This document shows, piece by piece, positions 126 to 3,144 of a stretch of DNA of 23,636 bases; position 1 is the stretch's first letter, and every line of letters begins with the position of its first letter. This stretch comes from a virus. The notes under the pieces were generated by a model. That model did not search any database. It worked only from the letters and a program-made list of their open reading frames with translations, and was not told where the DNA came from. Both the position numbers and the translations under genes were made by a program. The stretch spans positions 1-23,636 of IMG/VR virus record IMGVR_UViG_3300032088_000088; one strand, 5' to 3'.

Positions 126-233
126 AGGTAAAATCGGGGTTAAGTAAAAAGGAACAAAGGTATGGCGAAGTGGGTCTTGCAGGCAAGCGAGGAGACGAGC
201 GAAGGTAACGATGTCAAAACAGGAGATAGACAT

Positions 234-515
234 ATGGGTGATAAGAGTATGACGAGATCAGAGGTGCTTGGCAGAGCTGATCAACTGATCAATGGTGATA
301 GGGCGAGGCAGTACGGAAGTGCGACTGATAACTTTGGATGTATAGCGCAAATGTGGAGCGCTTATCTTGGCAGGGATGTCACAGCGTTTGATGTGGCAAA
401 CATGATGGCGCTGTTAAAGGTTGCGAGGTTACGCAACGGATCTCACGCTGATAGCTCGATTGATGGGTGCGGATACCTTGCGCTGGCTCACGAGCTGGGA
501 AATGAGGCTGTATAG
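234..515 (+). CDS. DUF6378-like small phage protein
   Basis: About 93 residues from this start. The arrangement resembles the DUF6378 family of small phage proteins: an N-terminal block with GDRARQYGS, an aromatic middle with IAQMWSAYLG, then a helix with DVANMMALLKVARL and a C-terminal block with DSSIDGCGYLALAHEL. Its biochemical function is unknown to me. The start at 234 is preceded by AGGAG at 221-225 with eight-base spacing. Other in-frame starts are 162 (AAGGA at 149-153), which adds 24 residues that do not look like the family, and 249, where the usual family N-terminus would begin. A 13-codon ORF at 211-252 ends on the ATGA at 249. Family assignment is from memory of the motif pattern; start choice is uncertain. 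Confidence 0.75.
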   Translation: MGDKSMTRSEVLGRADQLINGDRARQYGSATDNFGCIAQMWSAYLGRDVTAFDVANMMALLKVARLRNGSHADSSIDGCGYLALAHELGNEAV

Positions 516-550
516 GCTTGAAACAACGCCTCTCATAAGGCATACTATAT

Positions 551-653
551 CTAGTGGGTTCTCCTCCCTCCAAACGTGCTGTTTTTGCATTTATAGCATG
601 TTTCCCACTAGACTAGACCGCGTAGCAAATCTCCTCTTCCTAGCTACGCGGTC
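551..653 (+). ncRNA. Two-hairpin element with CU-rich anti-SD segments
   Basis: Hairpin A pairs 551-558 (CTAGTGGG) perfectly with 604-611. Inside it 572-580 pairs with 595-603 (nine pairs, one G-U). Between the two left-hand arms lies an unpaired pyrimidine bulge at 559-571 containing CTCCTCCCTCC. Hairpin B pairs 616-626 (GACCGCGTAGC) perfectly with 643-653, with a 16-base loop containing TCTCCTC. Both structures expose the same TCTCCTC, complementary to a Shine-Dalgarno sequence. There is no U-run after hairpin B, so this is not a standard intrinsic terminator. It may be an sRNA or the structured 5' leader of the gene at 674. The pairing is visible; the RNA function is inference. Confidence 0.35.
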
Positions 654-673
654 ACATTACAAGGTTAATTGAC

Positions 674-877
674 GTGACAGATTTTAACATCAAACTAACA
701 TTAGATCTTCATTGCAGGAATACTGACGAGAATGATCAAGAGCTGGATATGTTATGCGACTTCATAACAGATAGATTGCATGTAGTTGGGGCTGAGGTTG
801 TCATACAGTCATTAGCAGAGGCTCTCATTGAATTACATGATCAACACGCTGAGGAGACAAGCAAATTACTACATTAA
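674..877 (+). CDS. Small acidic protein of unknown function
   Basis: 67 residues, GTG start with AAGG at 661-664 about nine bases upstream. The N-terminal third is beta-like (alternating FNIKLTLDL) and the rest is helical and acidic, with LAEALIELHDQHAEETSKLL at the C-terminus. It has two cysteines and no signal peptide or membrane segment. I do not recognise the family. It follows directly on the two-hairpin element at 551-653 and precedes a gene-free region of about 370 bases, so its expression may be tied to those structures. The periodicity is coding-like, but the length and the GTG start keep confidence moderate. Confidence 0.6.
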   Translation: MTDFNIKLTLDLHCRNTDENDQELDMLCDFITDRLHVVGAEVVIQSLAEALIELHDQHAEETSKLLH

Positions 878-1253: not shown

Positions 1254-1754
1254 ATGGCTGGCAAGGCATTACGCAGGAAGATCCTTTCAGATGTCGAGAA
1301 GAAAGGTGGAGTTGAATACCTGTTTGAGCAAATCGCATCAGGCAATACTTTGACGAAAATGGCTGTAGAATATGGATGTTCCAGACAATACCTTGGCTCG
1401 TCACTGAATAAAGTGCCAGAATATGAGAAGGCCATGAACGAAGCCAGACGCCACGCCGCAGATGCTTTAGTCGAACAGGGCTTAACAATGGTGGATGATT
1501 TGGATGGTGGCTCGACAAGCAGTGAAATAGCCGCCACGAGAGAGAAGGTGCAATGGCGTAAATTTATGGCAAGCTCATACAACCAAGATAGATATGGCAC
1601 GAGGCCACAGACAAACGTGAATATCTCAGTTGGCGATATGCACCTAGACGCCCTACGCAAAGTTAATTCTGACTTGGCGGCTATCCATAAGGAAGATCTG
1701 GAACGCGAAGCCAAGACGATTGACGCAGATTATGAGGATGTATCAGATGAGTGA
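1254..1754 (+). CDS. terS: Terminase small subunit
   Basis: 166 residues. It would bind the packaging site on phage DNA and deliver it to the large subunit. Residues about 30-55 form a helix-turn-helix-like stretch (TLTKMAVEYGCSRQYLGSSL), followed by a helical central part rich in Ala and Glu and an acidic tail ending DADYEDVSDE. This matches the usual domain order of phage small terminases (DNA-binding domain, oligomerisation helices, C-terminal tail for the large subunit). The ATG has GGAGA six bases upstream and a promoter candidate just before it. It overlaps the large-subunit gene by eight bases (ATGAGTGA), typical of a coupled terminase pair. Call rests on position, the helix-turn-helix and size. 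Confidence 0.82.
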   Translation: MAGKALRRKILSDVEKKGGVEYLFEQIASGNTLTKMAVEYGCSRQYLGSSLNKVPEYEKAMNEARRHAADALVEQGLTMVDDLDGGSTSSEIAATREKVQWRKFMASSYNQDRYGTRPQTNVNISVGDMHLDALRKVNSDLAAIHKEDLEREAKTIDADYEDVSDE

Positions 1755-3144
1755 TAACCCATTAACAGAATTTGTTTTACGCTATCGAGATGACCCAGTG
1801 CTATTTGTTAAAGAGGTGCTAGGCGCAGACCCATACGATTATCAATCAGAATTTCTGGAGGCCATATCAAGTGGCGAGCGTAAAATGTCTGTCAGATCTG
1901 GGCATGGTACAGGAAAATCAACGTCGGCATCTTGGGCGATGCTTTGGTTTCTCCTACTGCGTTTCCCAAATAAGGTTGTTGTCACAGCGCCCACGTCCAG
2001 CCAATTGTTTGACGCATTGTTTGCCGAGCTAAAACGATGGATTAATGAGTTGCCACCCCATCTACAGCAATTGCTAACTGTTAAGTCAGATCGTGTAGAA
2101 CTAACGTCAGCCGCTTCCGAGGCATTTATATCAGCTAGAACGTCACGCGCAGAAACGCCAGAGGCATTAGCTGGTGTACACTCAGAGAATGTTTTATTGG
2201 TAGTTGATGAGGCATCTGGTGTGCCTGAGAAAGTTTTTGAAGCGGCGGCTGGGTCAATGTCTGGTCACAGCGCAACCACATTACTGCTATCAAACCCGAC
2301 GAGATCCTCTGGCACATTTTATGAAAGCCAAACCAGAATGGCAAAGAGCTGGTGGACGAGGCGCTGGTCGTGCGTCGATAGCCCACTTGTGTCTGATGAG
2401 TTTGTCGAGGAAATGCGCGAGCGATATGGCGAAGAAAGCAATGCATTCCGAATACGTGTGCTTGGTGAATTTCCTATGGCAGACGATGACACGATTATAC
2501 CATTTCATTTAGCTCACAGCGCCACACAACGAGATATTGAGATGACGCCAGAGATAAGGCCAATATGGGGCTTAGACGTGGCAAGATTTGGTACTGACAA
2601 AACTGCGCTTTGCAAAAGGTATGGCAACGTCGTCACAGATATTGAGGCGTGGCAGGGATTAGACTTAATGCAAACTGTGGGTCGAGTTATGGCAGAATAT
2701 GAGGGGCTACCTAGCAGTCAAAGACCTAAAGAAATACTGGTTGATAGTATTGGTGTTGGCGGCGGTGTAGTTGATAGATTACGTGAGCTGGGTGTGCCAG
2801 TGCGTGGGATTAATGTTGGCGAAGCCCCAGCAATGGGTAAAACTTATATGAATTTACGAAGTGAGTTGTGGTTTAAGACAAAAGGCTGGTTAGAAGATAG
2901 ATCCTGCAAAATACCTAAAGATGACCAGCTTGTTGCGGAATTAACTGGCATACGATACGCATTTACATCGTCGGGCAAGATGAAGGCCGAAAGTAAGGAC
3001 GCAATGCGAAAACGTGGCCTAAAGTCGCCAGATCTTGCAGATGCACTTTGCCTAACAATGGCATCAGACGCTGTGACTGCTTTGTCTGGCAATAACAATA
3101 ATTGGAATAAATCTATCAAGCGCAATTTAAAGGGAATTGCATGA
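1747..3144 (+). CDS. terL: Terminase large subunit (packaging ATPase and nuclease)
   Basis: 465 residues from the ATG at 1747. It is the motor that pumps DNA into the prohead and cuts the concatemer. Walker A is SGHGTGKST at 51-59, and Walker B is LLVVDEAS with D154 and catalytic E155. A coupling motif LLLSNPTRSSGTFY follows near 179-192. The RNase H-like nuclease domain shows GLDVARFG with D277, LVDSIGVGGG with D333, and a C-terminal SPDLADALCL with D429 and D432. Start choice: in-frame TTG at 1720 and ATGs at 1732 and 1738 exist, but 1747 overlaps the small-subunit stop and has AGG nine bases upstream. All motifs needed for activity appear intact. It ends in an ATGA overlap with the next gene. 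Confidence 0.96.
   Translation: MSDNPLTEFVLRYRDDPVLFVKEVLGADPYDYQSEFLEAISSGERKMSVRSGHGTGKSTSASWAMLWFLLLRFPNKVVVTAPTSSQLFDALFAELKRWINELPPHLQQLLTVKSDRVELTSAASEAFISARTSRAETPEALAGVHSENVLLVVDEASGVPEKVFEAAAGSMSGHSATTLLLSNPTRSSGTFYESQTRMAKSWWTRRWSCVDSPLVSDEFVEEMRERYGEESNAFRIRVLGEFPMADDDTIIPFHLAHSATQRDIEMTPEIRPIWGLDVARFGTDKTALCKRYGNVVTDIEAWQGLDLMQTVGRVMAEYEGLPSSQRPKEILVDSIGVGGGVVDRLRELGVPVRGINVGEAPAMGKTYMNLRSELWFKTKGWLEDRSCKIPKDDQLVAELTGIRYAFTSSGKMKAESKDAMRKRGLKSPDLADALCLTMASDAVTALSGNNNNWNKSIKRNLKGIA

Follow-up and report, generated by a model that had tools for sequence, protein, structure and literature searches.

Does a phage encode its own RNA of the cuckoo type, a class of common regulators in Alphaproteobacteria? 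The question is raised by two CU-rich hairpins in a 23.6-kb IMG/VR virus record, here called the window (the whole 23,636-nucleotide stretch analysed). The original prediction held that these tandem hairpins expose anti-Shine-Dalgarno (anti-SD) motifs in a gene-free gap and could mimic a small RNA (sRNA) of the host, binding ribosome sites or titrating that RNA's partners. Folding energies were compared with those of 200 shuffles, and word counts with those in 300 first-order Markov copies.

Hairpin A (551-611, plus strand) is closed by an outer stem of eight perfect pairs, CTAGTGGG at 551-558 with CCCACTAG at 604-611, enclosing an 11-bp inner stem (572-582/593-603) and an apical loop, UUUUGCAUUU, at 583-592. 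Its CU motif occupies a 5'-side bulge of 13 nt rather than the end loop; this anti-SD segment, UUCUCCUCCCUCC at 559-571, has an unpaired probability near 1. Hairpin B (616-653, plus strand) consists of an 11-bp stem, GACCGCGTAGC at 616-626 with GCTACGCGGTC at 643-653, and a 16-nt loop (627-642) carrying UCUCCUC at 630-636. The perfect 8-base and 11-base outer stems described previously can be read directly from the sequence, as can TCTCCTC at 560-566 and 630-636, and both copies fall within segments left unpaired by folding (559-571 and 627-642). The stretch TCTCCTCCC at 560-568 does match the cuckoo motif CCTCCTCCC at eight of nine positions, as had been claimed. Folding energies were -21.9 kcal/mol for A (z -6.0), -19.6 kcal/mol for B (z -7.5) and -45.5 kcal/mol for both together (z -9.3), and in each case 0 of 200 shuffles folded as low. 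The word CTCCTC inside a perfect 8-bp stem occurs twice in the window versus a mean of 0.09 and a maximum of 1 in the 300 Markov copies. The two hairpins are real, with a stability far beyond chance.

Conservation was assessed in a near clade of 30 aligned sequences, 24 of them distinct (alignment A2). Among these 24 relatives, 98.7% of stem cells are paired, and compensatory two-sided changes affect 14 of 26 pairs, with 91 double-change cells versus 0-2 in control structures slid by 1-3 columns. RNAalifold recovered the same helices unaided. Stem sequences drift with compensation while the loops are fixed, the anti-SD segment GGUUCUCCUCC and the UUUUGCAUUU loop being invariant across the clade. 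Loss of the stems in related phages was to have counted against the original prediction; they are instead retained through compensatory changes, with the loops kept by sequence, and fold and conservation together support its tandem hairpins with an exposed anti-SD motif. The plus strand has 31 G-U cells and only 2 A-C cells, which would be G-U on the minus strand, and the selected molecule is therefore the plus-strand RNA. The minus strand also folds more poorly (z -5.5 versus -9.3) and loses the inner stem. These sequence comparisons give the structure good evolutionary support and show it to be conserved as RNA of the plus strand. A sequence resembling the apical loop of A, GUUUUUGCAU, sits in the second-hairpin loop of the L080 clade.

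The hairpins lie between a DUF6378 protein gene (162-515, plus strand; Pfam PF19905, E 3.2e-30) and ORF67 (674-877, plus strand, GTG start), which encodes a small acidic protein of 67 aa. The gap from 515 to 674 is free of genes, as predicted, and its length among relatives (158, 159, 160 and 150 nt) varies by amounts that are not multiples of three. PHROGs and several phage records label DUF6378 proteins phosphofructokinase, which looks like a propagated misannotation because the protein is only about 117 aa long. The 59 distinct homologues of ORF67 are acidic proteins of 62-69 aa with an invariant C-terminal His and always directly follow the RNA; the window's own protein has no PHROG match, and its model of two helices (mean pLDDT 84.7) is of an uninformative fold. 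Further downstream, genes for the small (1254-1754) and large (1720-3144) terminase subunits, TerS and TerL (both plus strand, assigned by PHROG/Pfam), open a packaging and structural module, and the window also encodes portal, scaffold and SU10-type major capsid proteins. Replication genes are seen in the 40-kb relative G002 (RuvC-like resolvase, exonuclease, SSB and primase-helicase). Two other repeats, an AT-rich palindrome upstream of DUF6378 (58-115) and an inverted repeat of the form C8...G6 that precedes TerS (1126-1157), are possible origin, terminator or packaging signals.

This arrangement extends well beyond the near clade. TerL relatives in IMG/VR, together with a pattern scan, yielded 117 DUF6378-to-ORF67 regions, 63 of them distinct, and an exact-motif scan placed the element in 73 IMG/VR stretches. 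The order of DUF6378 gene, hairpins and 67-aa ORF is kept in the 63 distinct intergenic regions. DUF6378, anti-SD hairpin, second hairpin and ORF67 remain in this order where DUF6378 identity is 42-60% and TerL identity 84-90%, distances at which the RNA is alignable mainly within the motif. Upstream of ORF67, UCCUCCC is present in 65 of 71 distinct regions, CCUCC in 67, CTCC in all 71, the exact cuckoo motif CCUCCUCCC in 12, and GGAGG in one. CTCC is mostly unpaired with a probability of 0.9-1.0, versus 0.35-0.5 over whole regions; exceptions include L080, L167, L172 (about 0.01), L175 and parts of L025, L054 and L041. Several distant clades carry the motif on the first hairpin only, and in G002 plus-strand CCTCC occurs solely in these two loops. 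The element had no blastn match in 50,697 phage records. Fold scans of stretches of MW202711, MW202879, MW202496 and C72C1, of all of phiM5, and of the surroundings of DUF6378 genes in Octadecabacter DB virus 2, CRP-811 and CRP-810 gave generic CCTCC/CTCCC hairpins only, none of them built like this element. One 61,867-bp contig holds two diverged TerL/RNA regions (L028 and L056), possibly through a genuine duplication, assembly as a dimer or the joining of two phages.

Kinship to known families was examined with Rfam, which gave no match in the window at gathering threshold. The covariance search suggested in the original prediction returned the cuckoo family ar14 (RF02344) as the best relevant match, but its 23.2 bits (E 0.027 over 501 bases) fall short of the 58.8-bit gathering score. 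Relatives matched ar14 at E 1.9e-5, 1.6e-4, 2.0e-4, 6.8e-4, 0.0014 and 0.005, all under the cut-off, with L187 weak (E 1.9); some control genomes matched at an E limit of 10 and none at E <= 0.001. There was no ar14 match in the isolated or assembled relatives MW202711, MW202879, MW202496, phiM5 and C72C1. Formal membership was rejected, since even the best score in the phage clade was 27.5 bits. A minus-strand match to HIV_GSL3 (E 0.31) was discarded as chance. The definition of ar14/NfeR1 RNAs calls for three hairpins that each carry CCUCCUCCC (PMC10746234), and cuckoo RNAs also exist in two-, three- and four-hairpin versions, SmelC201 having two (PMC3927594). Like them, the phage RNA leaves the motif unpaired in successive hairpins with stems of variable sequence. 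It has two hairpins, plus a 5-bp repeat further upstream, and in place of an exact CCUCCUCCC in every hairpin there is an eight-of-nine match in A and UCUCCUCUU in B. The phage RNA is thus anatomically like ar14/cuckoo RNAs but not a formal ar14 member.

Upstream of hairpin A lies a putative sigma70 promoter (518-546, plus strand), with TTGAAA at 518-523, a 17-nt spacer and CATACT at 541-546; the predicted transcription start, at about 552, coincides with the foot of the hairpin. Its consensus match of 9/12 is alone not above chance in a scan. The TTGA and GGCATA.T.T columns are invariant in 30 relatives, and a TTG.../17-nt layout recurs, with drifting sequence, in most of the 63 distinct intergenic regions (among distant ones, for example, TTGCGC-N17-CTATAC in L077 and TTGATC-N17-CTATTA in L203); no promoter was assigned in the L080/L171 clade. 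That TTGAAA-N17-CATACT acts as a promoter is thus suggested by the recurrence of the 17-nt spacing, not by the scan score. The promoter spacer contains a small 5-bp inverted repeat, GCCTC-TCAT-AAGGC (528-541, plus strand), putatively an operator or an upstream hairpin; 2 of its 5 pairs have changed on both sides, and in some relatives it is broken. At the other end, hairpin B occupies the alignment position of a terminator hairpin in other clades, and a terminator-like U-run follows the second hairpin in several distant ones (L187, GGGCGUCUUUUUU; L215, GGGGCAUUUUUUU). The window's clade reads CACAUUAC at this position, with the U-run absent and the loops kept; a defined 3' end is therefore not predicted for the window.

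We consider that the locus probably encodes a cuckoo-like anti-SD sRNA of the phage that would cover ribosome-binding sites. As a small RNA gene between replication and packaging/structural genes, it would have a promoter of its own for plus-strand transcription, starting at about 552, and the RNA would fold into two hairpins that keep the CU-rich segments open. The exposed UCUCCUCC(C) could then pair with GGAG/GGAGG of mRNA ribosome-binding sites and block translation initiation, in the manner of NfeR1 (ar14), which silences ntrB in Sinorhizobium by covering its ribosome site (PMC10746234); the motif's known action is described there and in PMC3927594. Judged by anatomy and the NfeR1 precedent, repression in trans by the CU loops is the most likely action. 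Targets would be host and/or phage mRNAs with a strong SD, and the phage may benefit from their repression. Pairing with an SD is open to any CU-rich loop, and duplex energies with the window's ribosome sites reflect how strong the SD is in general; no special partner is conserved. TerS was rejected as a specific target, because loop changes are not mirrored in its GGAGAA/GGAGTT site.

A leader RNA for the operon that follows is the chief alternative, and we regard it as unlikely as the sole account. In phage lambda, the pR'/6S region offers such a layout. By analogy, a constitutive promoter would yield a short structured transcript ending at B as a (weak) terminator, with read-through into ORF67 and the terminase and structural genes, and the CU loops would bind an antiterminator or serve some other leader function. 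The position between replication and packaging genes and the terminator U-runs of several clades fit such a leader, as does the start of ORF67, which lies about 18-25 nt past hairpin B, so that ORF67 can be expressed only through it. Yet a leader leaves unexplained both the likeness to ar14 and the conservation of UCCUCCC rather than of the stems (65 of 71 regions); moreover, no antiterminator was identified, and the window's clade has lost the U-run and kept the loops. An sRNA and a leader can both hold.

The same short distance to ORF67, about 20 nt, would also suit a switch in cis, in which the CU loops repress ORF67 (or TerS) by pairing with its ribosome-binding site on the same mRNA; GGAG precedes ORF67 in several clades, and TerS sites have GGAG throughout. 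However, the invariant CUCCUCC would have a poor partner in the ORF67 site, which reads AAGG within the window's clade and resembles GGGCC in L077, the duplex with the window's ORF67 site reaches only -2.5 kcal/mol, and no covariation between loop and site was seen. Because of this poor pairing in the window's clade, we hold control of ORF67 in cis to be very improbable. Least credible of all, and disfavoured, is an element that acts as DNA (protein binding, packaging or replication repeats) or as a GGAGG-rich minus-strand RNA titrating CsrA-like proteins. Inverted repeats do adjoin the terminase genes, and the minus strand would display GGA motifs, but the G-U bias and the poorer minus-strand fold given above, together with promoter and terminators that point to the plus strand, argue against it, as do stems that drift with compensation around fixed loops.

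Returning to the proposed sRNA, its host may be sought in the Rhodobacteraceae. A genome-collection contig of Rhodobacteraceae bacterium Water_Bin34 encodes a TerL relative (96%), and this bin also contains, on a 4-kb contig, a sequence that matches the phage RNA at 135 bits and, on a 195-kb contig, an ar14-like RNA of its own (46.9 bits). In a search of 198 Rhodobacteraceae genomes (R1), only the phage-contig bin matched. ar14 is found at E <= 0.001 in 33 of 41 Rhodobacteraceae genomes, and by portal protein the best phage-record match is an Octadecabacter virus (46.5%). These sequence matches are suggestive only of a Rhodobacteraceae host, because binning can err. In a further search (R2), the best Rhodobacteraceae match was a two-hairpin anti-SD RNA, L253 (G064:C1:93188-93264). 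It has a CUCCUCCUCCC loop as well as a CU-loop terminator, is the closest cellular look-alike in layout, and adjoins a gene that, read by eye, resembles one for a small heat-shock protein. Two other R2 matches in this family, L254 and L255, form ordinary terminator folds and were rejected; L256 showed no such element within the part viewed.

Viral contigs were also scanned for pairs of exact CCTCCTCCC words separated by 22-52 nt, followed by a simple unpaired-motif filter. At least 120 viral stretches contained such pairs, and at least 67 passed the filter, some of them repetitive coding sequence. Three of 16 checked exceeded the ar14 cut-off: L259 (999-1119, minus strand; 81.2 bits), L263 (8583-8702, minus strand; 80.5 bits) and L275 (2958-3076, plus strand; 73.3 bits). 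The L259 RNA lies between Gam-like and helicase genes and that of L263 adjoins a phage-type helicase gene; these three IMG/VR contigs may be prophages. Phage or prophage cuckoo RNAs may thus be common. We tentatively suggest, as a somewhat doubtful generalization, that alphaproteobacterial phages have repeatedly acquired or evolved cuckoo-type anti-SD RNAs that, on infection, drive host translation control, the marine clade having a divergent two-hairpin version and other phage contigs having true ar14 RNAs amid replication genes. The papers searched contain no report of a phage-borne cuckoo RNA, although they cover the literature in part and an earlier mention is possible. If confirmed, the RNA would be a natural tool for studying how translation initiation in abundant marine bacteria is contested or reprogrammed by phages, and would let one ask whether phages spread the cuckoo family. 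Its fixed loops and freely varying stems permit exact mutants.

Set beside known systems, the phage RNA resembles ar14/NfeR1/SmelA075 in its consecutive hairpins, variable stems and fixed unpaired anti-SD motif. It differs in its score under the cut-off, in the bulge plus inner hairpin of A, in its two hairpins, in the lesser motif match of B, and in its genomic setting, a phage locus flanked by DUF6378 and ORF67. A mimic of a host sRNA, as originally proposed, is a plausible candidate, and this family of uncultured marine phages may be exploiting a type of RNA switch that its hosts themselves use. CcsR1-4/CcaF1 (CIN1 locus, Rhodobacter) offer another parallel: CcsR-like RNAs belong to the likely host's family, where arrays of CUCCUCCUCCC hairpins occur (L246-L251). 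Unlike these, the phage RNA has its own putative promoter and no DUF1127 gene nearby; searching 13 phage records at E <= 0.01 turned up no gene of this CcaF type. AbcR1/2 (ar15) and SisA-D (ar8) are alphaproteobacterial anti-SD sRNAs that repress many mRNAs (PMC7143759, PMC12559287); anti-SD motifs are common to them and the phage RNA, which does not match their Rfam models. Among phage RNAs that base-pair or precede late genes (c4 of P1/P7, AgvB, AsxR, DicF and the lambda 6S/pR' leader), Rfam revealed no sequence relation to ours. Whereas phage sponges carry mRNA-like or sRNA-complementary sequence, the phage RNA described here carries the anti-SD motif itself.
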